A stretch of DNA of 64,000 nucleotides from an uncultured Latescibacterota bacterium. GTDB taxonomy: Bacteria; Latescibacterota; UBA2968. The notes under the pieces were generated by a model. It was given only the letters and a program-made list of their open reading frames with translations, did no database searches and was not told the origin of the DNA. Where the stretch lies: NCBI GenBank assembly GCA_958295785.1, contig OY282377.1, positions 1,130,394 to 1,194,393 on the forward strand. Reading direction: 5' to 3'. Of the stretch, positions 31,937 to 58,008 are shown piece by piece. The translations under genes were made by a program, and so were the position numbers. The stretch's first letter is position 1. Each line of letters begins with the position of its first letter.

Positions 31937-32225
31937 CAACAGTTCATCTATGGTCAAGATTCAACTGCCTAGCAGTTCATTAAAGGTCTCCGTGGCTTGG
32001 GGTGGTGGTGGGGACTGACCGCTTGGGATTGGGTCAAGGACAGGCACGGGGGCCTGTCCCTACGGTTGATGGATGCAAGGCGGGGACTAACCACTGACTA
32101 CTGACCACTTCTCATATCTTCGGGCGGGCACAGAGGCACCGCCCCTACGGTCTCACATCTCGATTTTAAGGGTGGACTGACCACTGACCACTGACCACTC
32201 TCCACTTTCCACTTTCCACTGCCTT
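31937..32225 (+). repeat. Intergenic heptamer and hairpin cluster before the prenyltransferase gene
   Basis: About 290 bases without a gene. It holds the hairpin GGACAGGCACGGGGGCCTGTCC (32036-32058 region), a second GC-rich hairpin (GGGCGGGCACAGAGGCACCGCCC near 32123) and, at 32175-32222, seven contiguous heptamers: three ACTGACC, then ACTCTCC, two ACTTTCC and a shortened ACTGCC. The last ends three bases before the next start codon. Confidence 0.85.
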
Positions 32226-34815: not shown

Positions 34816-35459
34816 AAAGGCAAAGCGGCCCCTGTGCCCCCATGTGGTTTTATCGCGCCGTAAAGCGATTCCTGGGGTGAAAAGGTAAATGTAGGGGCGC
34901 GGGCCCCCTGTGCCCGCCCGAAGATACAAGAGGAATGAGGAACAGACGTTCCGTAGAGATAAGGCGTTGCTTGTCTCAAGCGTTTGGTTCTGCCTTCGCG
35001 TGGGTTGCCTTCGATGCGTTGGCTACGCCTGTGCCTACGGCGTGCGGCGACCTACTTTTTTTCAACAGCAAAAAAAAGGAAGCAAAAAATGCCGCTCTCA
35101 TACGCCGAGGGGCTTGCACAGCGCAAATCGCTTTTGTAACAGCAAGACATGCGTTGGCCTGCGAGGTGGGTTGCGAGATGGACTTGCGCGCTGTGCGTGA
35201 TGGCATGATCTGATGGTCTTTTGGGATGGCATTTTTGCAATGGCTTTTTTGAATGACTGCGTAATGTCAAGGGAATCATTTCTCGACCGGGCTGGTAGCT
35301 CAAACTGTCCCTACGCCTGATGGGGCAGGTGTGTAGGACGTTTTCCCTTTCGCGCTTTTCGCGTATTTCGTAGTGGTTCCTGTCCCTACTAACGGATACG
35401 AGGACAGGCACGGGGGCCTGTCCCTACGACTGACCACTGACCACTGACCGCTGACCACC
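34816..35459. repeat. Repeat-filled gene desert between sulfatase and anion transporter
   Basis: These 644 bases hold a GC-rich hairpin (TAGGGGCGCGGGCCCCCTGTGCCCGCCCGAAG near 34893-34924), truncated copy A of the MITE-like element (34929-35282), the GGACAGGCACGGGGGCCTGTCC hairpin (35403-35425) and a heptamer array (ACTGACC)x3-GCTGACC at 35429-35456. The array abuts the next start codon. No credible gene is seen. Confidence 0.8.
34929..35282 (+). repeat. MITE-like repeat, copy A (truncated at both ends)
   Basis: It is homologous to copies at 39360-39743, 43992-45683 and 58088-58537. Shared landmarks are GCGTTTGGTTCTGCC, TTCGATGCGTTGGCTACGCC, an A/T-rich hinge (CTTTTTTTCAACAG, then eight A) and GCAAAAAATGCCGCTCTCA. 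The terminal TACCAATTTGA sequences are missing here. Confidence 0.85.
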
Positions 35460-44285: not shown

Positions 44286-45521
44286 GGGAATTATATACTT
44301 GCCAACCCTCAATCATCTTGTTAAAGTAATCACGGGTTTTTGGTGTTGAATGCAAGCGACCTCTGATTTTGGGCATGCCTGCCCCTAACATCTAACGTTT
44401 CAAAACGTTTTCCTTCGCGTCTTTCAGGAACGGATAACCTTTGCATGCGTGGATAAGATTTCCCGTTGACTGCCATATCGCCCGCCTGTGCCATAAAGGT
44501 TGTTCATGCAACCCCCTCACTGGCTATAAGTTGCTTGTAAGTCAACCGGGCGCCCATCGCCCTATTCAACATCTCATCAACACGACTTAAGGTATCACCC
44601 TTTTTTCGAGTGATGCGAAACACGCAAGCATTCAGGTCCTTTTGCATGTGTTTGTCTGACCAATGGTGATGAATACCCATATAGACACGCTTAACCCGTG
44701 CCCACAAACTCTCAATGGCGTTCGTATGGACACCATCGCGTTCATATTCGTCGGCAGAATGATTGATTTGTTCCACTTCGTAATCATCCCTCAATGCGCC
44801 GTATGCGCGGTTCTCGTCTGCATGAATAGTTGCGCCCGTCAAGACCTGGTTCAACATCTGATCGTGTCATGTTGCCCCTTTTGCATCCTGTACATGAACC
44901 GCCATTGCCTCACCATCTTCACCTTTTTCCCGCATTCCGAAAGCAACCGATTTACCTACTGTTCCGCGACCCGCATTCAACTTTTTGGATTTATGTTTGT
45001 TCTTTTCTTTCCCACCGATGTAGGTTTCATCAATTTCAACGATACCAGACAGAAAACCATCATCATCATCGTCTTTGTTGCCAAAAGCGTTTCGTATTCT
45101 TTGAAGCATAAACCAAGCGGTCTTTTGCGTTGTACCGATCATTTTAGCCAACTGAACGCTTGAAATACCTTTTGAGGGGTTCGTTTCAATCCATATTGCC
45201 GCGAACCATTTAGGCAACATCTTGATTTTTGACGCGCCAAACATCGTTCCGTAAATCATATGAAAATTACGCCCACAATCCGAGCACCTATACGCCAAAT
45301 CAGAACGACGATAGATTTTTCCCATACTACCACAGTGCGGACAAGACGCGCCATCCTTAAAGCGTATCTTTTCAAGGTGCAAAATACACGCTTCAGGCGT
45401 GGCAAACTTCTGTGTGAACGCGACGAAACTAAGCTGCTTTGCCATCATACACCCCCTTGTTCATTCGTAACTTCTATAAATATAACAAGAAAGGTTAGGG
45501 TTGGCAAATATATAATTCCCC
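44286..45521 (-). mobile_element. IS1595-type insertion sequence, nested in the MITE
   Basis: Imperfect inverted ends GGGAATTATATACTTGCCAACCC (left) and the inverse of TTGGCAAATATATAATTCCCC (right) border the element, with GGGTTGGCAA at the inner part. The flanks are runs of eight A (44278-44285 and 45522-45529), consistent with the 8-bp A-rich target duplication usual for IS1595. Confidence 0.85.
44504..45448 (-). pseudogene. IS1595-family transposase with one in-frame TGA
   Basis: The minus-strand frame begins MMAKQLSFVAFTQKFATPE and has a zinc ribbon CPHCGSMGKIYRR with CSDCGRNF, then the ISXO2-like DDE region: VEIDETYIGGKEKN (first Asp), ATIHADENRAYGAL (second Asp) and NAIESLWARVKR (Glu). 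A TGA at 44867-44869 interrupts after AKGAT; the same frame continues to 44504. Apart from that codon it appears complete. Confidence 0.9.
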
Positions 45522-45688: not shown

Positions 45689-46978
45689 TCACATCTTATT
45701 CTCCCGTCTCGCCACTGCTGAAACCGCTTCAATGGTCGCATCGATCACGTCATCGGTATGCGCGGTGGATAAAAACCATGCCCCGCGCTCGAGGGCGCGC
45801 ACGCCTCGATAGAGAAGTGCTTCCGTGAATGCGATATATTGCTCGCGGTCAGCTTGAAGCGCGTTGCGATAATCGGTCACGGGCGCGTGGACGCCAAATC
45901 CGACGTGGAAAATCTGCGGAAAGCCCGCAACCCGCGCTTGGATATTCGCGTCGCGCAGTGCCCGGCGGATGCCCTCCATGAGTCGCGTTCCCCGTTCGTG
46001 CAACACGTCGAACGTCTCCTGTTGTTTCAACGCGGTCAGCGTGGCAACCACCGCGGCCATAGACGCGGGTTGGGCATTGTACGTGCCCCCGTGCATCACA
46101 TCTTGGACGAACAGATCCATCAAATCCCCGCGACCGGCCAAACACGACACCGGAAACCCATTGGCGATAGCCTTGCCAAACACCGCCAGATCAGGCGTCA
46201 CGCCAAAATATTGCTGCGCGCCGCCGGGCGCCACGCGAAACCCGGTGATCACCTCGTCAAAAATGAGCACTGTTCCCGCATTGGAACAAACCTCCCGAAC
46301 GCCTTCCAAATAGCCCTCGGTCGGAAAAATCACACTGGTATTGCACATCACAGGCTCCATAATCACCGCGGCGACATCGCCCCGTTTCAGACGCGCGGAC
46401 AGAAGATCCAGATCGTTCCAGACGAGCACCTCAGTGCGCTCGTCCGCCACTTGCCCCGCGCTGCCGGGAACGGGCATGGGTGTGTCAACAGGCCCGTACT
46501 GATCGGGCGAGGGCGCGACCGACCACAGCACATTGTCGAACCAACCGTGGTAATGCCCCTCAAATTTGACCGCAACAGATCGGCCCGTGGCCGCACGCGC
46601 CAAGCGCAGGGCCGCTTGCACCGCTTCGCTGCCCGCGCTGCTAAATCGCACCCGATCCGCGCACGGCACCATCTCGCAAACCAATCGGGCGGCTACTTGC
46701 TCAACCGCGGTTTGCCCGGCAAAGAGGATGCCCGACTCGAGTTGTTCTCGAACCGCAGACAAGACCGATTGGGGATTGTGACCGAGAATCATCGGCCCCA
46801 TGCCCAAATAATAATCGATCAACCGGTTGCCATCCACGTCGTAGAGGTAGGGGCCTTCGCCGCGTTCAAACACCAGCGGCGTGGGACGCATCCCCAGCCG
46901 AAAATTGCTGTTCACACCGCCCGGCAAATAGCGCGCGGCTTCGGCGATCAAGTGCTTGGATTTTTCAAACCTCTCCAT
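45689..46978 (-). CDS. Class-III aminotransferase, glutamate-1-semialdehyde aminomutase-like
   Basis: The 429-residue PLP enzyme has AARYLPGGVNSNFR at the N-terminus, GSEAVQAALRLARAATGR, FEGHYHGWFD, LIFDEVITGFRVA and the PLP lysine in AVFGKAIANGFPVSC. This pattern is shared by HemL and by broader class-III aminotransferases; no other heme gene is nearby, so the substrate is uncertain. ATG 46978 has GAGGAG upstream. It overlaps the 3' end of the preceding restriction gene by 14 bases, which ties its expression to that gene. Confidence 0.85.
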   Translation of the reverse strand: MERFEKSKHLIAEAARYLPGGVNSNFRLGMRPTPLVFERGEGPYLYDVDGNRLIDYYLGMGPMILGHNPQSVLSAVREQLESGILFAGQTAVEQVAARLVCEMVPCADRVRFSSAGSEAVQAALRLARAATGRSVAVKFEGHYHGWFDNVLWSVAPSPDQYGPVDTPMPVPGSAGQVADERTEVLVWNDLDLLSARLKRGDVAAVIMEPVMCNTSVIFPTEGYLEGVREVCSNAGTVLIFDEVITGFRVAPGGAQQYFGVTPDLAVFGKAIANGFPVSCLAGRGDLMDLFVQDVMHGGTYNAQPASMAAVVATLTALKQQETFDVLHERGTRLMEGIRRALRDANIQARVAGFPQIFHVGFGVHAPVTDYRNALQADREQYIAFTEALLYRGVRALERGAWFLSTAHTDDVIDATIEAVSAVARRENKM

Positions 46979-49613
46979 CAACGCTCTCCTCGCTATTCCT
47001 CTCAAAAATTGCCGTGGCAATTAGCACCGTTTCAGCCACAGCATTGCGGAGATCCCGTTGGAGTTCGCGAACGCGACGGGCGTAGCCAATGAGCCGTTCG
47101 CGCTGTTCTCCTTTTTTGGGCATGGGCAGAAGGAATTCATTTTCAAAAATGGATTCTCTGATTTCCGGCTGGACAGCCGTTATCGCCAGATAATAAACCT
47201 GTTTCCGAAACATTTCCGACGTGAAAATGCTCCACAAGAGGAGTGCCTCTTCACGGGTTTCAGGTCGAATCGCAATAAACCCTGTCGTGACCAAGTGTCC
47301 GTCAAACTCAGGAGGCACAATGACGGCAGTTCCCCTGGATGAAATGTTCTTGGCGAACAAAACATCGTTGGTCTGCACCTGCAACCGCGCCCGCGTGGGC
47401 AGGTTTTCGAAATAATCCTCGCGGTAATTGACGATTGCCCCTTCTCGGGTCACGTCTCCGATCTCAAAATATCGAAAAATTTCGCCCATGCACGCGCTCC
47501 CTTCTCGCGCGGTCAACTTTGGCACAATATGAAACTCGCGCCCGGTTAGCATATCCACGCGCCCTTCCGCCGCACGCGCTTGCAAATCAGCCCGCGTTCT
47601 CGCCAAATCCGGCGCGTAGTGAAACGCATCCAACCTCTTGGGATTGAGTTTGTCCGCGGGAACGACAAAAGTCTGGAAAGGACACCCCAAATTTTCATTT
47701 TGAACCGTGTTGGGTTCAAAAATCTCTATGCTCTCCCCATCTCTCCGCCAGTGATTCCAGACCTCTGTCAGCCGCGGTATGTTATTCCTCTCAGGCGTAT
47801 AACGCTGATAGTCGTCATGGCCCACATTGTTGAGAATCGCCATGAACACCGCGCCCTGTGCATCTTTCTCATTTTCGCGTTTCACAAGGTGAATGATGGA
47901 TGTTTGCACCCCGGCTTGCGCGGGCAAAAAAGTATTGAACGGCAAAGCGATGACCTGGCGTATGATAAAGTTTTCCAAAATATAATCTCGGTATCTCTGG
48001 CTGCTCTCGCCATTGAGAACGGTGTTGTCGATAACCGTGAGCAACTCACCGCCATTGTTGAGAAGGTGGCAATACCGCTCGAGAAACAAAACATTGGATT
48101 TCGTACTGCTCTTGCGCTTCCCAGTATTGGTAAGGGCGATTTCGTATTGGTCCAGCATCCGCCTCTCGTCGTCATTTTTGCGTTGGTACGAGATGCTGAA
48201 TGGCGGGTTGGTCAGCACGACGTCAAATTTGCGACGCGCGTCAATCAAAAGGTGTTGCAGTTCTTTGACCTCTTTAGTCCTCTCTAGCGACAGGCCGGTG
48301 GGAGGCTGAAGATCGCCATCAAGGGTATCGGCCACAAATACCGTGCTGCCCCCATCTCCGTGCAAATACATATTGAGGCGTGCGATGCGCGCGATCTTAT
48401 CTGCCTTGTCAATACCGTACAGATGTTCGATATAAAGCCGTTTCTTGAGCGCGTTTTTTTCCGTATTGGTCAGGTCATTGCGGGCATCAATGGCGTGGAC
48501 GAGTTTCGCCATGGCTTCAATGAGAAATCCCCCACTCCCGCAACAGCCATCGAGAACGACCGGCAATTCGTCGCCGCGCACCCGGAGGTCGGCCGCTTGG
48601 CTCATATACTTCACGACGCTTCTCGGCGTAAAAAACTGACCGAGCTCTCGCCCGCGAACGGTCGCATTCAAAAATGTTTCGAACATCCGTCCGTTGAGGT
48701 CTTCGTCAATGCCGTGTAGGTCGTAATGCTCCAATTTCTCCACGATCTGCTGAATGGTATCCGCGCTCAAATTCAACGGCTCTTCTTCGTCAAAAATGCG
48801 CTTCTTCTCGCCGATCCCAATTTTCTGTTCCAAATCATCCCGAACATTCTTGAAAAGAATCTCCCCCAAGGGATTCGCGCTTATGCCGCGACTGGTTTGG
48901 TCTTGAATCCACGCCGATGAAAAATTGAAGTCTCGCGCCTGTGGCACAGTGCCATCGGCAACTATCGCGGCGATTCGATTGTCTTCACGCAATTTGATGA
49001 ACATTAACTTGGCAAACTCGTAGAACGCATCTGTAGGGCCCAATGCCTCCTTCTTCCGTATGATGTTGTGGCAATCGCCAAACACGCGGATGAGGTCGTT
49101 CAGGTCGGGCCGGTCAAATAAAAATACGTCCCGAGGGGCGCGGACGACATCTGCGGCGCCGCAAGTGAGCAAAGAGCGCAGTTGGACAAATTTTGCGTTG
49201 TCCTCCTCAAAGTCGCAAAACGACAGGTGGAGTTTGGGCGCATCTCTATCCCAATGCCACAAAACCGAGGTGAGGCCATTCGTCGCGACGACATACTGGA
49301 CTGGGTTGTTATCGTACCGCTGATTCAGCATCAGCGCGTATCCGCTGACCTGATAGTGGTAGTCCTCGGGGGGTTCACCGGGCGATTTCGCGTCAATGAT
49401 GATGGCGGGGTCGCCTTGCCCGTCGAGGAGCACGTAGTCGGGCCTGTACTGTTCTTTGCCGCGGCCACGCGGTATGGCAATTCTCTCCAACGAATCTTTG
49501 CGCCGGATGCGATTATCCGGATAATTCAGCTTGGACAGTAGCCTTTCGATGACCAAGGCTTCGACATCGGCCTCTGAATCGAGGTCCGCGCGTTCGCAAA
49601 ACATGTTTCTCAT
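46965..49613 (-). CDS. Single-chain nuclease, N6-adenine methylase and specificity protein (type IIG-like)
   Basis: The 882-residue protein has an N-terminal HSDR_N-type nuclease core (YRPDYVLLDGQGDPAIIIDAKSPGE, a D...DxK site). Next comes an HsdM-type methylase with FFTPRSVVKYM, DGCCGSGGFLIEAM and VLTNPPFSISY. The C-terminal 250 residues form one target-recognition domain (FRYFEIGDVTREG, LQVQTNDVLFAKNISSRG, TTGFIAIRP). All three activities sit in one chain, as in type IIG enzymes, and no helicase R subunit is nearby. It lies next to HerA-type and glycosyltransferase genes on the minus strand. Confidence 0.86.
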   Translation of the reverse strand: MRNMFCERADLDSEADVEALVIERLLSKLNYPDNRIRRKDSLERIAIPRGRGKEQYRPDYVLLDGQGDPAIIIDAKSPGEPPEDYHYQVSGYALMLNQRYDNNPVQYVVATNGLTSVLWHWDRDAPKLHLSFCDFEEDNAKFVQLRSLLTCGAADVVRAPRDVFLFDRPDLNDLIRVFGDCHNIIRKKEALGPTDAFYEFAKLMFIKLREDNRIAAIVADGTVPQARDFNFSSAWIQDQTSRGISANPLGEILFKNVRDDLEQKIGIGEKKRIFDEEEPLNLSADTIQQIVEKLEHYDLHGIDEDLNGRMFETFLNATVRGRELGQFFTPRSVVKYMSQAADLRVRGDELPVVLDGCCGSGGFLIEAMAKLVHAIDARNDLTNTEKNALKKRLYIEHLYGIDKADKIARIARLNMYLHGDGGSTVFVADTLDGDLQPPTGLSLERTKEVKELQHLLIDARRKFDVVLTNPPFSISYQRKNDDERRMLDQYEIALTNTGKRKSSTKSNVLFLERYCHLLNNGGELLTVIDNTVLNGESSQRYRDYILENFIIRQVIALPFNTFLPAQAGVQTSIIHLVKRENEKDAQGAVFMAILNNVGHDDYQRYTPERNNIPRLTEVWNHWRRDGESIEIFEPNTVQNENLGCPFQTFVVPADKLNPKRLDAFHYAPDLARTRADLQARAAEGRVDMLTGREFHIVPKLTAREGSACMGEIFRYFEIGDVTREGAIVNYREDYFENLPTRARLQVQTNDVLFAKNISSRGTAVIVPPEFDGHLVTTGFIAIRPETREEALLLWSIFTSEMFRKQVYYLAITAVQPEIRESIFENEFLLPMPKKGEQRERLIGYARRVRELQRDLRNAVAETVLIATAIFERNSEESVDGEV

Positions 49614-50643: not shown

Positions 50644-52320
50644 TCAATCGCCAAAAATCGCGGCTGACGCAGCTGCGGCTTTTTCCGTTCTCTCTTCATC
50701 GGACAAATCGCCCATCGCCTTGTAAAAAGCCTCGTCGTAATTGCGGGTTTTGATCACCACGGGCATCGGCACCGCATGCCCAAACACGAGGGCCTGTTGT
50801 TTGGAATCGAGACTCGCCAACACACTTCGCAAGCCATTGGCATTGGACACGCCCGTGAGCACGCCTTGGATATCTTTTTCGTCGTTGAGCAAGGCCGTGA
50901 TCTTGGTGCCGAGTTGCGAGAGCACTTCCTCGTCAATGCCCGAGGGGCGTTGGTCAACGACGAGGAGGGAGACATAGTACTTCCGCATTTCTCGGGCGAT
51001 GGTGCCGAAAATGGTCTGTTTTGCCGTGGCCGGGTTGAGAAACTTGTGGGCTTCTTCGATGGTGATGACCAGGGGCCGGGGTTGGTCTTCGGGATTTTGA
51101 GATGCGTAGAATTTTTCGCTCTTCGTGACGTACTGCTCGTGAATGCGCCGCGAGAGAATATTCGCCACGAGCAAATAGGCGAGCATGCTGGTCTGCCGCC
51201 CAAATTCGAGCACGATGTGAATGCCGCGGTCGATGTAATCCATCATCGTATCCACGGCATCGGCGCCGTCGAGGCGATTGACCATAAAGGGAAAATTGTC
51301 GATGCGCTTGAGCTTGCGATGCAATGCGGACAGCGAGCTTTTGTTCGCGCCGATATCCTCGGCGAATTGCTCGACATCCGGGCCATCCACCGACAGCAAC
51401 TGCCGCAACCAGCGGTTTTTGTACATCGCATAGACGAGATAGGCCGATTCGGCTGCCGTGGGATTGAGTTGCAACTCGTCTTGCAGTGCGATCACATCCT
51501 CGACCGCGATTTGATCGTAGGCGATGTACACCTCGTGGTCCGGCTGAATCCCGCGCTGTCGGGACGATTCCGGATCCAGAGAAAACAGGGCCACCTGATT
51601 GCCGAACAACTGCTTGAGGCCCTTGACAAAACTGCTGCCTTGCCCGCCGCCCTCTTTCATCGCGCGAAACCCGTACTCGTTGTGCATGTCAAAAATGAGA
51701 TTGACGGCCTTCTCGTTCTTGATCAGGCCGCACAGCACCAAGCGCGTGAGAAAGGATTTGCCCGTGCCGGTCTTGCCAAAAATGCCATTGCTGCGCTCGA
51801 CAAAGCGATTGAGATTGATGCACACCGGCGTGTCCATATCCAACGGCGTGCCCAGGTTGAAAAACCGGTCGTCCTTGTCCTCGCTGCCAAACACGCGCGA
51901 CACATCTTCTTCGTCGGCCTCCACGACTTTGGAAAAATGACTCGGAATGGTCTTGACCGGACGCGGCTCATCCACGATTTCCTCGCCCTGTTCGAGCATG
52001 AGCATGGGCCGCAGCGCGACCGTGACGTACGTGCTCGACCCATTGAGCACGCTGTGCAACAACTGGTCGCCATCGCGGGGCGGATAGAGCAAAATGTCGG
52101 GATTGGTGGCATCGAGGGTCAAATCGGTGATCATCGAGAAGAACTGATTTTTATACCCCTCGATCACCACGAACTTGCCGGCTTTGACGTCCTCAACGCT
52201 GCGGTTGGGGTTGAGCTTCATCTCGACCCCCTCGGTCAATGACCCGCGCGTGACAACGCCAATTTCGCCAATGGTCTGAATATTGGGCGACCCGTTGAGA
52301 TTGTTCCAGAGATCGTTCAT
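50644..52320 (-). CDS. herA: HerA-type hexameric ATPase
   Basis: HerA-family ATPases form rings that translocate DNA. With NurA they resect double-strand breaks in archaea, and in bacteria they pair with nucleases in phage defence. The 558-residue protein has an N-terminal beta-rich HAS-barrel-like region (IGEIGVVTRGSLTEGVEMKL), Walker A GIFGKTGTGKSFLTR at about 185-199, Walker B PLVITIEEAHKFLNPATA, and the arginine-bearing VVDQRPSGIDEEVLSQLGTK. GT2 and restriction genes follow on the same strand; the 199-residue partner and NurA lie upstream. Confidence 0.87.
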   Translation of the reverse strand: MNDLWNNLNGSPNIQTIGEIGVVTRGSLTEGVEMKLNPNRSVEDVKAGKFVVIEGYKNQFFSMITDLTLDATNPDILLYPPRDGDQLLHSVLNGSSTYVTVALRPMLMLEQGEEIVDEPRPVKTIPSHFSKVVEADEEDVSRVFGSEDKDDRFFNLGTPLDMDTPVCINLNRFVERSNGIFGKTGTGKSFLTRLVLCGLIKNEKAVNLIFDMHNEYGFRAMKEGGGQGSSFVKGLKQLFGNQVALFSLDPESSRQRGIQPDHEVYIAYDQIAVEDVIALQDELQLNPTAAESAYLVYAMYKNRWLRQLLSVDGPDVEQFAEDIGANKSSLSALHRKLKRIDNFPFMVNRLDGADAVDTMMDYIDRGIHIVLEFGRQTSMLAYLLVANILSRRIHEQYVTKSEKFYASQNPEDQPRPLVITIEEAHKFLNPATAKQTIFGTIAREMRKYYVSLLVVDQRPSGIDEEVLSQLGTKITALLNDEKDIQGVLTGVSNANGLRSVLASLDSKQQALVFGHAVPMPVVIKTRNYDEAFYKAMGDLSDEERTEKAAAASAAIFGD

Positions 52321-52433
52321 GGGAAAGTAGGGGTCAGTGGTGGGGGCTAATTGCTTCTTGTACTTTGGGCGAGCACGGGGGCATCGCCCCTACACACACG
52401 GCGCGCCTTTTGTGGCTAAACTTCCATCTCGCC
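52321..52433. repeat. Heptamer and GC-rich hairpin between HerA and its partner
   Basis: The spacer carries GGGTCAGTGGTGGG next to the HerA start (an ACTGACC-type array on the coding strand) and the hairpin GGGCGAGCACGGGGGCATCGCCCC at 52366-52391. Confidence 0.65.
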
Positions 52434-53033
52434 TTATTGCGAAACGCGCCTCATAATCGAACTGAGGCGGTCGTAGTCGTCGCGGATGAGGCGGCACAGG
52501 TCTTTGCCAATGCCCACCAGATAGGGCATGTCAAACGCACGCGCGGCCCAGGCATTTCGCACCGAGGCGATGATGAGATCGTCCGCGGGCAGACGATTGC
52601 CATTGCCGCACAAAATGCTGCGGAGAAAATCGCCGCTGTTGGTCAGGGCTTTGATCTCGGATTCCGAGCAGGGAAACACAAAACTGTGGATGCCGGGCGG
52701 CTGCGGGGGCAAGACCTGTTGCGGGCCTTTGTCGTCGCCATAGCCGATGATCACCGCCTCGAACTCGGTCTTGAGCAGTTCGAAAATTTGCGGCTGTTCT
52801 TCGCGCAACTGTTGCTCGGTCAGGCCATAGGCCGTCGCGCGGCGGTTGGGTTCAATCGAGTGCGTACACACGTTGAACACCAAGCCATACACGGGCAATG
52901 CGCCGAGGGTTTTGACAAAGGACCCGAAGGGCGGCGCGCCATTGAGCTCGCGGCTTTCAGACGTGAATTGCGACGTGGAACTTTCCACGATTTCGCCGAT
53001 AAATTCGCTGAGATCGAGTTGCGCGAGTGACAT
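52434..53033 (-). CDS. HerA-linked protein of unknown function
   Basis: A 199-residue soluble protein I cannot assign to a named family. It starts MSLAQLDLSEFIGEIVESST, has a beta-rich middle (FGSFVKTLGALPVYGLVFNV, then AVIIGYGDDKGPQQVLPP) and a helical C-terminus with DMPYLVGIGKDLCRLIRDD. It is directly upstream of HerA on the same strand, so it is most likely a HerA cofactor, possibly an N-terminal HAS-like adaptor split into its own gene. Confidence 0.65.
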   Translation of the reverse strand: MSLAQLDLSEFIGEIVESSTSQFTSESRELNGAPPFGSFVKTLGALPVYGLVFNVCTHSIEPNRRATAYGLTEQQLREEQPQIFELLKTEFEAVIIGYGDDKGPQQVLPPQPPGIHSFVFPCSESEIKALTNSGDFLRSILCGNGNRLPADDLIIASVRNAWAARAFDMPYLVGIGKDLCRLIRDDYDRLSSIMRRVSQ

Positions 53034-53207
53034 AGAAACCTCTATTGTGAAAAGCAGTAGTCAGTGGTCAGTCCGCCCATTCGCTCCGTTGCCCCACATG
53101 CGTGCCCCGCCCGACTATCCGTCCGCCCGTGCGTTCCCTTCCTCGCCCCGATCCGCCATGTGCGCTATACCCAATCCCCAACCCGTGCCTGTCCTTGCAC
53201 CCAGCGA
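53034..53207. repeat. Heptamer-containing spacer at the edge of the restriction cassette
   Basis: GTAGTCAGTGGTCAGTCC at 53058-53075 is a reversed heptamer array facing the 52434-53033 gene. A degenerate CCCGTGCCTGTCCTTGC hairpin half lies at 53184. The region marks the left edge of the three-gene R-M cassette. Confidence 0.65.
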
Positions 53208-53993
53208 CTAAACCACCCCTGCCATCGGTATTTGTCCGCCAAAGACACGTTCTTTTGCTATGGCAACATACGCCTTGGAGATATCCACCCCGATGAACCT
53301 TCGATTGTGCTTCAGGGCCATTTTGCCCGTCGTGCCACTGCCGCACATGGGATCGAAGACGAGATCGCCGGGATTTGTCCAAGACAAGATATGATCCTCC
53401 GCCAACTTTTCGGGAAAGACCGCGGGATGGTCAAAGGCAATTTTGTCGGTTGTCGTGCCGCCATAACCCACCGCATAAGGCCAGATATTTGTACGGGTCT
53501 TTTCTTTTTTGAGTTCCTTGAGCACCTTTTTGTTCACGCCATCGGCGCCCTTGTTGTGTGTCAGCATTTCCATGCCGTGTCTGACCGTTTCAACTTTTAA
53601 GGGATTAAATGTGTTCGGTTTGCCCCGCGACAACACAAACATAAACTCATAGCAGTTCGTGTAGGCATTGCTCCGCATAAAAGGCGTGTTCTTCTTTTGG
53701 TAGATCATGACATCGTGCATAAGAAAACCCATGTCCTGAAAGAACAAGCCCTGCCTAAAACTGGTTAGGGTTCGTCCGCCGTTGATTTTGTCCCCAACGA
53801 CCCAGACGACGACGCCTCCCTCTTTTGTCACCCTGTATAGATGCTTTGCGATATTCTCAAAGTCAAACGAATAGCCTTTGTAATTTCGCAAATTATCATA
53901 GGGCGGCGACGTCACGGTCAAGTCTATGGATTTCTCATCCATACGAGACATAAACGCGACACAATCATCGACAAAAAATCCTTCTTCCATCAT
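53208..53993 (-). CDS. Beta-class DNA methyltransferase of the restriction cassette
   Basis: The 261-residue protein has the catalytic TSPPYDNLRNYKG at residues 29-41 and the AdoMet-binding motif VFDPMCGSGTTGKMALKH near residue 210, the order of beta-class N4-cytosine or N6-adenine methylases. Two adjacent ATG codons open it; the second (53990) is better spaced from AGGAAG. It is the last gene of a cassette with an alpha-class methylase and a probable endonuclease. Two methylases with one endonuclease recall MboI/DpnII-like systems. Confidence 0.85.
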   Translation of the reverse strand: MMEEGFFVDDCVAFMSRMDEKSIDLTVTSPPYDNLRNYKGYSFDFENIAKHLYRVTKEGGVVVWVVGDKINGGRTLTSFRQGLFFQDMGFLMHDVMIYQKKNTPFMRSNAYTNCYEFMFVLSRGKPNTFNPLKVETVRHGMEMLTHNKGADGVNKKVLKELKKEKTRTNIWPYAVGYGGTTTDKIAFDHPAVFPEKLAEDHILSWTNPGDLVFDPMCGSGTTGKMALKHNRRFIGVDISKAYVAIAKERVFGGQIPMAGVV

Positions 53994-54062
53994 TTCTTCC
54001 TGCCTTGTATCTAAAACTCACATTCGCGCCTCTGACGATTGCGGCAACCTTTCCGCGTCGAG

Positions 54063-54818
54063 TTACCAGTTGCCGAAGGTTTTGACCGCACTGCCATAGA
54101 CAACGATCGTTTTGTTGTGGTGCTGTCTCTCTTGGATATTGCCCCACAAGAGTTCCATAACGGGTATTTTGTTGATGTTAAAACGCACTTCTCGATAGTG
54201 TTGGGGGCTGTCATTTCTCATTTCGAGTTCCCCGACATTTCTGCCATTATACCTAAACAATACCTTCTGCTCAGGCGGGTTGCCTCTTGAATTTTCAACA
54301 GTGAAGCACTCGCCCATGATATGAACCACATCCCTATTCAAAAAAACGTGATAATTATCCTCATGCAAAGCCGTAAGATAGTTGACTTCACCACCGTTAA
54401 AAAAGGCTTTCATCAGAAATGCACGCAACAATGCTTTGCGCTGAAACCGATCTTTGAGTTCGCGCATCGGGGTTCGCAGAAGTTCCTTTGATGCCTCTTT
54501 GCTATTCTCATAGTCCTCATAGCGCGGCGGAAAAGTATCAATACAATGGATCAACAAAGAACCGATACCGTTCAAGGCTTGAAATCCATCATCGGTCTCA
54601 AACCTCGATCTTCGATAGAGAAATACTTGCCACTTCTTTTGCCCAGACTTGACGGAATGGGCATCGCCAGAAGGGTCAATGACGTCCTTCTTTGCTTTTT
54701 TGTCATTGCGGTAATCGTTATCTAATCCGAGAAGAAGTGCGAACCGAAGCGCGTCTGCGTGCCCTTGTTGTCGGTAGGTACGCGCTTGCTGAGGAGAAGA
54801 TGCGCGTCTGCGAGCCAT
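54063..54818 (-). CDS. Probable type II restriction endonuclease
   Basis: The 251-residue protein lies between two methylase genes, and its ATG overlaps the stop of the D12-class methylase by one base. That position is the main evidence for its role. A candidate catalytic segment is VLFRYNGRNVGELEMRND near the C-terminus, with charged residues that could form a PD-(D/E)xK variant; I cannot prove this. The N-terminus (MARRRASSPQQARTYRQQGH) is basic. No family was recognised by eye. Confidence 0.6.
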   Translation of the reverse strand: MARRRASSPQQARTYRQQGHADALRFALLLGLDNDYRNDKKAKKDVIDPSGDAHSVKSGQKKWQVFLYRRSRFETDDGFQALNGIGSLLIHCIDTFPPRYEDYENSKEASKELLRTPMRELKDRFQRKALLRAFLMKAFFNGGEVNYLTALHEDNYHVFLNRDVVHIMGECFTVENSRGNPPEQKVLFRYNGRNVGELEMRNDSPQHYREVRFNINKIPVMELLWGNIQERQHHNKTIVVYGSAVKTFGNW

Positions 54819-55810
54819 TAGTTTGTATCCTTCCATATCAACAACTCGTGTGATTTCTTCACATGCGAACCTTTGTTGTTTTGCATGCGATTTTTTCCAA
54901 TTCTCGTATCGCCCTGACCAAATGTGTACTGCCACTGCGGCGTCTCGATATGAAAATCCGAATACCAGTTGCGGATGGTGTCGCAGTCGTTGTAGGACAG
55001 GATAAATCCGCCCTGATGTGAGAGAAGCAGATCTCGGAGTTTTTCATGTGGGAAACCGACATGATGGATCGGGAAGTTGCGGTGCGGATACATGCCGACA
55101 AATGTTTTTCCATCTTCGAGGTAGTAAGGCGGATCGCAATACAGAAAATCGCCTCTATGCGACGGAATCGAATCCTCAAAACTCGCGCATTGCACGGACA
55201 TGCTGTTTGCGTGAAAGCATTTCACCTTTTCGAGCATTCTCGCATAGCGATTTTCATTGAGATAAATATCCGAAGGCCATCCGAGAAAATGGGGGCCATA
55301 AGATGTGTTGGAATTGAAATAATAGTGTGCGGCGAGATCGCGGGGACCGAGCGTTTCCCCGTCCTTCCAATGGGCGGCGAGTTTGTCCTTCACCTTTTTG
55401 AACGTGACGCGATTGGGAAAAAATTGTTCCAAGCGATTGTAGAGCGCGTCCCTCTCTCGCAACTGAATGTCCCAGTACGTGCATAAAATGTCGAATACAT
55501 CATAGGCGATCACTTCGATACCCAATTCTCGGGCGCATGCAACTTCAACCGAACCGCCCCCTAAGAATGGCGACACCAATCGACTCAGTCCTTTCGGCAA
55601 ACGCTCTACGACATAGCCCACAGCGAGGCTTTTCCCGCCGGCATAGCGCAGGGGCGAACCGAGATAGCGTTTGTAGTCCTGCTTTCCACCGCTCTTTAGA
55701 GAATGGAGAAATCTCTCTTTGTGTGAAAGGGAGAGACGCATATCATCAAACGAAAACAAAGTGGGTACCCGTGTTCCATCGACAGGTGAAACCGCAAAAT
55801 TTTCTTTCAT
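54818..55810 (-). CDS. D12-class (Dam-type) N6-adenine methyltransferase
   Basis: The 330-residue protein has the alpha-class order: LRYAGGKSLAVGYVVERL and FLGGGSVEVACARELG (AdoMet site), then a recognition region, and the catalytic DFLYCDPPYYLEDG near residue 215. ATG 55810 follows CGAGGAGAAC and is preferred over the TTG ten codons upstream. Dam-type members often methylate GATC, but the target cannot be read here. It is the first gene of the three-gene cassette and starts 57 bases after the NurA stop. Confidence 0.88.
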   Translation of the reverse strand: MKENFAVSPVDGTRVPTLFSFDDMRLSLSHKERFLHSLKSGGKQDYKRYLGSPLRYAGGKSLAVGYVVERLPKGLSRLVSPFLGGGSVEVACARELGIEVIAYDVFDILCTYWDIQLRERDALYNRLEQFFPNRVTFKKVKDKLAAHWKDGETLGPRDLAAHYYFNSNTSYGPHFLGWPSDIYLNENRYARMLEKVKCFHANSMSVQCASFEDSIPSHRGDFLYCDPPYYLEDGKTFVGMYPHRNFPIHHVGFPHEKLRDLLLSHQGGFILSYNDCDTIRNWYSDFHIETPQWQYTFGQGDTRIGKNRMQNNKGSHVKKSHELLIWKDTN

Positions 55811-55866
55811 GGATGTTCTCCTCGTTCCCGGTGAGGACAAATTGTGCCGCCTATAGTGGGATTCGC

Positions 55867-57087
55867 TTATACGGCCGCAGCCATCTTTTTCAGTTGTTTG
55901 AGCGATTGTTCAATTTTCACGTCGTTTTTGACAAAGGCGTCTTTTAGAAATTTGAAGAATATGTCGCGGTCGGCCCCGCGCACAATGGCGCGCTCGTGGG
56001 ATTCGGACAACACCACGGGATAGCCCCGCCCTTTATCGACTTGATCGACAATGGTGGCATGGACGAGGTCGAGCAACTCGCGGTCGCGGGCAACCCATTC
56101 GGGAATTTCCACGCGCCCGATTTCCCAACCCGTGTGGACGTAAAAAAAGCAGATATGGTGCGGGCCGTAGTCGTCGAGGATTTTGGACGCGCTTCGGTAC
56201 ACCCCACTGCGCTCACCGCGCTTGAGCTTGCGGGCGTATAGCATATCGTCTGTCACGCCGGCAATGGGTTCGCAGGGAATGGGCGCGGGCGGTTCGGCAT
56301 CGGCATCAAAATTGAGGAGATGCTGCGCTTCGGCGGCTTTCCATGGGCACCGGTCGCAGTTGGGCGGCTGTTCCGGACACAGGCCCACGCGCAGGGCATT
56401 GAGCACATCCGCACTGCCGGGATCGGAAATATAGCCCGCAATGGGCACGCGCAATTCGCGCAACCGTTGCAAACTGGCGAGTGTGGTCTTGAGGATTTCC
56501 CGGCGAAAATCGTAGGGTTTGCCCTCGAGCATCCACAAAATCAAGGTCCCGTCTGTCAGCCCTGCGATGGTTCGCCCCTCTGCGTGCGCCTGAGCGGCCA
56601 GGGCCACGACCTTTTCCAATTCCATTGCATTGCGCCGCATCCCCACCACCTCGCGGGTGACAGTGCTGCGCTTGCCCGCCCACTCTTGATAGAGATCGTC
56701 CTCATCGTAAAACAGCGTGGGTTCACTGCTCAACACGGGCCGCTCTCCGCTGCCGTAATGGATGACGACATAGCCGATATTGATGAGAAAACAATTGGCG
56801 ATCTCGTGCCGATCCGGGAAAATTTGAGACCCATCTGCGGCGATCACGGTGAGTTCTTTGGGCCGGTCGGGCTTTGGACAGGTCTCGGTAATCGGCCCGC
56901 CCGGTTGGGCCACCAGCCAAGACGTGCGGCTGCGTGCAATTTTAACGCTCAGGCTTTCCCACGCATCTTCCCAGCGATCCATTTCGGAACACGCCAGATC
57001 GATGCGGGTGTAAAAGTCGTCTTGCAGGGTTCGGGCATCGACAGCCATCTGGTCGATCTGGCGTTTGAGCAAACCGTAATTGAGCAT
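55867..57087 (-). CDS. nurA: NurA-domain nuclease
   Basis: NurA is a 5'-3' exonuclease that works with HerA. The 406-residue protein has the NurA catalytic pattern: ELTVIAADGSQIFPDRH (motif I with its Asp), TIAGLTDGTLILW, the metal-site region RVPIAGYISDPGSADVL, and a C-terminal SESHERAIVRGADRD. A cysteine pair CDRCPWK near residue 250 may bind a metal, an extra not typical of archaeal NurA. It is separated from HerA by the restriction cassette. Upstream DNA carries a heptamer array in the coding-strand orientation. Confidence 0.82.
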   Translation of the reverse strand: MLNYGLLKRQIDQMAVDARTLQDDFYTRIDLACSEMDRWEDAWESLSVKIARSRTSWLVAQPGGPITETCPKPDRPKELTVIAADGSQIFPDRHEIANCFLINIGYVVIHYGSGERPVLSSEPTLFYDEDDLYQEWAGKRSTVTREVVGMRRNAMELEKVVALAAQAHAEGRTIAGLTDGTLILWMLEGKPYDFRREILKTTLASLQRLRELRVPIAGYISDPGSADVLNALRVGLCPEQPPNCDRCPWKAAEAQHLLNFDADAEPPAPIPCEPIAGVTDDMLYARKLKRGERSGVYRSASKILDDYGPHHICFFYVHTGWEIGRVEIPEWVARDRELLDLVHATIVDQVDKGRGYPVVLSESHERAIVRGADRDIFFKFLKDAFVKNDVKIEQSLKQLKKMAAAV

Positions 57088-57263
57088 TATGAGGCTCCTG
57101 TGCAGTGGGTCAGCGGTCAGCGGTCAGAGGCAAAATGCGAGGATAGAAACGTAGGGGCGGTGCCCCCGTGCCCGCCCGAACCCCCGACCCCAAGCGGTCA
57201 GCCCATCTATCGCTTTGGGCGGATGGAGGGAGGCTAAAAGCTGATAGTTGACCGCCGATAGCT
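57088..57263. repeat. Heptamer and hairpin repeats upstream of NurA
   Basis: GGTCAGCGGTCAGCGGTCAG at 57106-57125 is a heptamer array (ACCGCTG-type, minus sense). The hairpin GTAGGGGCGGTGCCCCCGTGCCCGCCC at 57151-57177 belongs to the dispersed family. No gene is seen. Confidence 0.75.
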
Positions 57264-57821
57264 TCACACAATTGATTCGTAAAAAAATTGCCGACCGCCG
57301 CCGGACACGCTGCCATCGCGCACGCGGCACACGAGACCCATTTTCTGAAGGGCGTTGAGCCGGTTGCACGCGATATTGATGTTTTTCCTCAAGGCGTGGG
57401 CGAACTCGGACGACGTCCCTTTCTTGCGGGTCAGCACCACGTCCAGGGCTTCTCGAATGGGCGTTTTGAGCACGCCGATCACATGGATGTCGCCATCGTC
57501 GTCTTTGAAAAGCGCGGCCAAGTTTCGCAACTTGAGCACGGCCTCGAGGGTTTCGCGCACGGAATCGTTGGCGTTTTGGATAAAGGCAAAGCGATGCCCG
57601 AGCTCGCCGCTGCCGATTCGCATGAGGAGTTTGGAAAGCAATTCGTCGGCGCAGGAGATATCGATGAAAGAGACGTTGGCAAAGTCGAGCGGCGTAACCG
57701 CATCGTCATCGGCGGTTTGCATAAATGCCATGAGCCGATTGAGCAGGTCTTCACCTCGGTCGCGGCCACTCAATATGCCCGTGGGTGTCTCAAAAACAAA
57801 GGGAGGGGTTTGTTCAGGCAT
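57264..57821 (-). CDS. STAS-like plus winged-helix protein
   Basis: The 185-residue protein has an N-terminal STAS/DUF4325-like part (LDFANVSFIDISCADELLSK, then LGHRFAFIQNANDSVRETLE). Its C-terminal 70 residues look like a winged helix: TSSEFAHALRKNINIACNRL, then LQKMGLVCRV and a wing with GSVSGGGRQFFY. It is the first gene of the HerA-NurA strand block and would be a regulator or scaffold. An independent upstream origin is possible. Confidence 0.68.
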   Translation of the reverse strand: MPEQTPPFVFETPTGILSGRDRGEDLLNRLMAFMQTADDDAVTPLDFANVSFIDISCADELLSKLLMRIGSGELGHRFAFIQNANDSVRETLEAVLKLRNLAALFKDDDGDIHVIGVLKTPIREALDVVLTRKKGTSSEFAHALRKNINIACNRLNALQKMGLVCRVRDGSVSGGGRQFFYESIV

Positions 57822-58008
57822 GCATCGTTCCTCAAAATTCGGTCGAGATGATGTTTGTGGGGATGGGCGGGGGAACGATGGGGAGAAGGGGGGAAGTGGT
57901 CGGTGGTCAGTCCGTTCAACTCGCCAACCCCCAAGCGGTTGGCGGTTAGCAGTCGGCGGTCAGTAAAACACGTTGCCTTGCGGACGGGGAAAAGACAAAA
58001 GTCACTGG

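Follow-up and report, generated by a model that had tools for sequence, protein, structure and literature searches.

A putative type II-like restriction-modification cassette in the slot of a hicBA toxin-antitoxin pair within a conserved HerA-NurA operon of Latescibacterota

The locus described here comes from an uncultured Latescibacterota bacterium whose genome is a single 5.66 Mb contig, 99.3% complete (GCA_958295785.1, contig OY282377.1). We analyzed a stretch of 64,000 nucleotides (positions 1,130,394 to 1,194,393), referred to below as the window. An earlier note, made from the sequence alone, had described restriction-modification (R-M) genes inside a HerA-NurA locus, and each gene that it named was recovered as a minus-strand open reading frame (ORF) at the same position. 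The features of the locus, given in the direction of the operon, are as follows.

57264 to 57821, minus strand: STAS-like and winged-helix (STAS/wHTH) protein, at the head of the conserved operon
55867 to 57087, minus strand: NurA nuclease, 406 amino acids (PF09376, E value of 1.2e-28)
55829 to 55851, minus strand: hicB relic, the first codons with a broken start codon (19 of 23 bases match the hicB start of relatives)
54818 to 55810, minus strand: D12-class N6-adenine DNA methylase (PF02086, 1.8e-31)
54063 to 54818, minus strand: probable restriction endonuclease, 251 amino acids, between the two methylases
53208 to 53993, minus strand: beta-class (N6_N4) DNA methylase (PF01555, 4.9e-43)
53047 to 53206, minus strand: spacer partly built from dispersed intergenic repeats (repeat parts 53182 to 53206 and 53047 to 53090)
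53038 to 53053, minus strand: hicA relic, the last codons (14 of 16 bases match)
52434 to 53033, minus strand: stand-alone HAS-barrel protein (HASp), a HerA/NurA partner, 199 amino acids (PF09378)
50644 to 52320, minus strand: HerA translocase (Pfam DUF87, 3.6e-32; HAS-barrel, 8e-6)
46965 to 49613, minus strand: single-chain HsdR-N and N6 methylase protein (type IIG-like), 882 amino acids (PF02384, 3e-36; PF13588, 1e-5)

The Pfam profile matches to DUF87 and PF09376 place HerA and NurA within their families, as had been proposed. The Walker A motif of HerA (GKTGTGKS) and its ITIEEAH motif are invariant among relatives, and the protein is 94 to 95% identical in 10 of 10 congeners and also present in most genomes of the same family and class. 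NurA carries the acidic motifs D85-G-S and D179-G-T, which we take from knowledge of the family to be catalytic and which are invariant among the relatives aligned. Cysteines 237, 244, 247, and 272 of NurA are all invariant across the class, suggesting that they may form a metal-binding insertion.

HASp, always found between NurA and HerA in relatives, matches the HAS-barrel family PF09378 with an E value of 1e-5 in the window and 2.8e-10 in a relative (L040). The HAS-barrel is the fold by which HerA contacts NurA (PMC9960219). Profile comparison of HASp with the window HerA detected no relation (probability of 0.9%), the two being HAS-barrel proteins by Pfam only, and an AlphaFold model of HASp built from 10 close homologues was poor (pLDDT of 48). 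The gene at the head of the operon was correctly placed in the earlier note as to ORF, strand, and position; its domain label held up less well, the winged helix being a weak match (NCBIfam Sta1, 0.0014) and the STAS part falling under every cut-off (DUF4325, E value of 0.14, in a relative). This gene lies 5′ of NurA in the genus, in other genera, and at the order and class level, in every genus, family, or order locus that extends far enough, and its product might be a regulator. A scan for promoters and terminators yielded nothing above chance.

Retrieval with NurA returned named Latescibacterota metagenome-assembled genomes (MAGs), one of them labelled Gemmatimonadota. The order STAS-NurA-HASp-HerA was uninterrupted by R-M genes in all 10 congeners and in other genera up to the class level. 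Counting the loci in which the NurA-HASp junction is readable, 29 of 29 genomes outside the window keep NurA-HASp-HerA with no R-M gene between NurA and HASp. Because the core order occurs without R-M genes in every relative examined, the R-M genes must have been inserted in the window lineage. It had been argued beforehand that an uninterrupted order in related genomes would favor insertion and that a seven-gene order fixed in many genomes would speak against it; the former was found in all relatives examined and the latter in none. Comparison of the window with congeners gave dN/dS values, which average over the time before and after the insertion, of about 0.03 for HerA and HASp, 0.04 for the STAS/wHTH gene, and 0.06 for NurA, and no reading frame was broken. 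This strong purifying selection on the core genes suggests that the HerA-NurA operon probably still works in the window lineage.

The inserted block contains the D12 methylase, probable endonuclease, and beta methylase that had been recognized earlier; Pfam firmly identifies both methylases, which supply the methylase part of a type II R-M system, and the putative endonuclease is so named from context and motif. The D12 protein matches a PADLOC type II methylase model (1.4e-112), has a DPPYY motif, and has DpnM and Dam as its relatives in the PDB. The ATG at 55810, preceded by GAGGAG, is a better candidate for its start than the TTG at 55840. In the beta methylase, a TSPPY motif precedes FDPMCGSGT, which is the beta order. 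For the ORF between them, a start at 54818 that overlaps the stop codon of D12 is the most likely, with a product of 251 amino acids. It is probably a restriction endonuclease, as judged from its context and its DVI-x(7)-SVK motif, seen in conserved form as KPDVI/KKDVID...S(I/V)K. Searches of Pfam, NCBIfam, PADLOC, PHROGs, and PDB sequences assigned it to no family; homologues were absent from the plasmids, phages, PHROGs, and PDB entries searched and from 63 other genomes of the phylum. A single-sequence AlphaFold model had a mean pLDDT of 39.8, and a PDB fold search with it yielded nothing usable.

The composition of the block is also distinct from that of its flanks, a comparison that the earlier note had proposed. 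GC content is 44 to 51% over approximately 53250 to 55999 versus 55 to 62% in the core genes, and GC3 is 0.48 to 0.60 in the cassette genes versus 0.69 to 0.74 in the operon genes. A viral contig (L051) encodes a 65% identical D12 methylase followed by a 59% identical relative of the endonuclease ORF, with an overlap identical to that in the window, near a phage integrase. This second occurrence argues that the D12-endonuclease pair travels. In another viral contig (L104), a distant relative of the endonuclease ORF adjoins a D12 gene.

The NurA-HASp junction of the congeners exists in two states. It is bare, at 14 to 18 bp, in 3 of 10 (G001, G002, and G006; loci L034, L036, and L042). The remaining 7 (G003, G004, G005, G007, G008, G009, and G010; loci L031 to L033, L035, L039, L043, and L044) have a junction of approximately 512 bp with two small genes, of which the hicA copy in G008 is broken. 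One product is a HicB-like antitoxin (PF21748, 1.7e-23) and the other a HicA-like toxin (PF07927, 6.4e-5), the latter with 23.4 bits being slightly under the 27-bit Pfam cut-off; together they make up a hicBA-type pair, in the order B then A and internal to the operon. Bare alleles are scattered over the operon tree, in which not all inner nodes are well supported. The first 30 bases of HASp are 98% alike among bare alleles and 61% alike between these and the others, and all other flanking segments show no split between bare and hicBA alleles. Since bare alleles are scattered on the tree yet share the start of HASp, slot alleles may have been exchanged through recombination within the conserved flanking sequence, or one shared junction may have moved between lineages. 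Elsewhere, a mandelate-racemase-like gene occupies the NurA-HASp junction in a different genus (G012, L045), and a nucleotidyltransferase-like gene (DUF2204/DUF6036) lies between the STAS/wHTH gene and NurA in another (L046).

Both edges of the cassette retain pieces of this toxin-antitoxin (TA) pair. Directly after NurA, the window reads ATAGGCGGCACAATTTGTCCTCACC, and the hicB start of relatives reads ATGGCGGCTCAATTTATCCTTAC. This is the best place for the match in the 64 kb window with both strands searched, and 4 of 5 hicB starts from relatives scored higher than any of 2000 shuffled versions of the window. At the other edge, directly before HASp, CTTTTCACAATAGAGGT in the window corresponds to the hicA end CTTTCACGATAGAGGT of relatives. 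This match too is the best in the 64 kb, and, for different relatives, 0 to 23 of 2000 shuffles scored as high. Although the two relics span only about 23 and 16 bases, each is at exactly the expected place. The retention of hicB and hicA fragments at the edges indicates that the R-M genes supplanted hicBA in one and the same slot. The operon tree sets the window as the sister lineage of all 10 congeners, which places hicBA in the slot before the split. A gain of hicBA after the window lineage had diverged was considered and rejected, as both cassette edges carry hicBA fragments.

We found no transposon ends around the cassette, with neither a target duplication nor a direct or inverted pair of flanking repeats. 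The spacer at its downstream border has 27 matching places in the genome, itself included, and GCGGACTGACCACTGACTACTG occurs in 21 genome copies with up to 2 mismatches versus 0 for the reversed control. These repeats could possibly have been a substrate for recombination. The dispersed repeat CGGACTGACCACTGACTACTG was seen in the window at 53055 to 53075, 57894 to 57914, 32083 to 32193, and 35426 to 35446; when up to 3 mismatches are allowed, the window contains it in 5 places, and its 22-base form has 21 genome copies with up to 2 mismatches.

Two possibilities had been raised for this locus, a composite defence island and a cassette that jumped into an operon whose parts still work. The uninterrupted order in relatives, the distinct composition, the absence of the endonuclease gene from the other genomes of the phylum searched, and the constraint on the core all agree with the latter. 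The TA pair that was replaced, the identity of the HerA partner as a second HAS-barrel protein, and the additional R-M gene at 46965 to 49613 had been overlooked. We are thus able to propose, with high confidence, that an R-M cassette replaced the hicBA of the slot within a vertically inherited operon and restricts independently, while HerA-NurA continues its own work. The operon of STAS/wHTH, NurA, HASp, and HerA genes, with its slot between NurA and HASp, would have been passed down vertically, and in the ancestor of the genus the slot would have held a hicBA-type pair. In the window lineage, a compositionally foreign type II-like cassette would then have displaced the interior of hicBA, a fragment of each gene staying behind at the edges. 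The three cassette genes are probably co-transcribed with the operon, because they share its direction and the junctions are short or overlapping. Most likely, the cassette would restrict unmethylated incoming DNA and maintain itself through addiction, in the way expected of the lost TA pair, and DNA-end processing by HerA-NurA would go on independently of R-M.

The main competing explanation is that the block does not restrict at all and instead consists of two orphan or phage-type methylases and an unrelated small gene brought by a mobile element. The best PADLOC model for the beta methylase is indeed an orphan methylase (1.5e-84), relatives of the D12 enzyme without the endonuclease ORF are common in cyanophages, and the ORF belongs to no recognized nuclease family. 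However, the ORF forms a tight pair with D12 both in the window and in the unrelated context of L051, its start overlapping the D12 stop each time; a distant relative sits beside D12 in L104; and the ORF has retained an Asp...Ser-x-Lys motif of the kind usual in PD-(D/E)XK-like enzymes. We therefore regard this reading as rather unlikely. Chimeric assembly, by which the cassette would have been joined to the operon in error, could be imagined for an uncultured lineage with relatives known as MAGs and for a block of deviating composition, but the block lies within one long, nearly complete contig, the hicB and hicA relics are continuous with host genes at both edges, and the border spacer is partly composed of repeats that are dispersed in the host genome. 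The chance of such an artifact seems negligible.

It is also conceivable that all seven genes form one anti-phage system, in which the methylases would mark self, the small ORF would nick or cut, and HerA-NurA would act as a processive effector. Sir2-HerA is an anti-phage system in which HerA is paired with a nuclease. DUF4297-HerA is likewise a proven defence made of a HerA motor and a nuclease (PMC11291478), although the nuclease in the window is NurA rather than DUF4297 or Sir2. The seven genes share a strand and are closely spaced, and PADLOC HerA models match the window HerA. Its scores of 94 and 75 bits nevertheless reach neither of the NCBIfam antiphage HerA equivalog cut-offs (800 and 850), and NurA matches no PADLOC model. 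The combination occurs in one genome only, HerA-NurA-HASp-STAS standing alone in others, and the core has been conserved by vertical inheritance throughout the class, under the constraint described above, like a housekeeping operon and unlike patchy defence genes, with the R-M genes a later insert. The idea of a composite island thus found no positive support, and we consider it very improbable. Co-operation between R-M and HerA-NurA is not needed for anything seen here. Somewhat less improbable, though still doubtful, is a role of the NurA-HASp junction as a docking slot that exchanges self-maintaining modules (hicBA, R-M), favored since the operon processes the DNA ends that these, and especially R-M, create. 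If this were true, shared operon control of break-making and break-processing genes would be a selected coupling.

The locus resembles several known systems in part. DpnII/MboI-type R-M systems consist of a D12 methylase, a beta methylase, and an endonuclease. The window has the same mix with an endonuclease-like ORF, and its D12 enzyme resembles DpnM; its gene order is D12-ORF-beta, and the ORF had no match to a DpnII-family endonuclease or any other Pfam entry at E values up to 1. In 2010, Furuta et al., as cited in PMC3874152, reportedly described mobile R-M systems that insert into or replace genes. The mobility of R-M systems and their kinship with TA pairs as addiction modules are established (PMC3874152, PMC3031569). 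As with such mobile R-M systems, the cassette is absent in close relatives and was inserted with loss of target sequence. Here, in contrast, what was lost is a TA pair, itself an addiction-type module, from a slot inside a HerA-NurA operon, where the window keeps edge fragments only.

The operon itself shares with the HerA-NurA end-resection complex of archaea and of Deinococcus (drNurA-HerA, PMC9960219) a DUF87 and HAS-barrel HerA encoded with a NurA nuclease, and the Walker and NurA acidic motifs are likewise present and, here, invariant. It differs in having a stand-alone HAS-barrel protein between the two genes, a STAS/wHTH protein before them, and four cysteines in NurA. The bacterial group named for HerA-NurA in that paper is Deinococcus-Thermus, outside which the phylum of the window falls. 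Within the open literature that we searched, two points are new: that Latescibacterota have a conserved operon of HerA and NurA that encodes a further HAS-barrel protein, and that R-M took the exact place of a TA pair of which remnants persist at either edge. Such a takeover of the position of one addiction module, to the base, by a module of another class supports the idea of competition between R-M and TA systems for the same niches. The locus also adds a conserved HerA-NurA operon from a phylum outside Deinococcus-Thermus, with an extra HAS-barrel subunit that is biochemically testable. If R-M and HerA-NurA are co-transcribed, the locus would offer a natural test of whether co-regulation is of benefit to break-making and end-processing genes.

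The type IIG-like gene at 46965 to 49613 lies between a glycosyltransferase gene and an aminotransferase gene, which adjoin in congeners. Because congeners lack it, there were two R-M insertions in the same gene run of the window lineage. Just past the aminotransferase gene, at 44504 to 45448, is a broken IS1595-family transposase, split into two ORFs. A search of the genome for RecC (PF04257) found none, and we did not conclude that HerA-NurA replaces RecBCD, because a 1002-amino-acid ORF with a strong RecB/AddB-type PDDEXK_1 domain is present (G000 C1:1257591-1258424). HerA-NurA may therefore not be the sole end-processing machinery in this bacterium.
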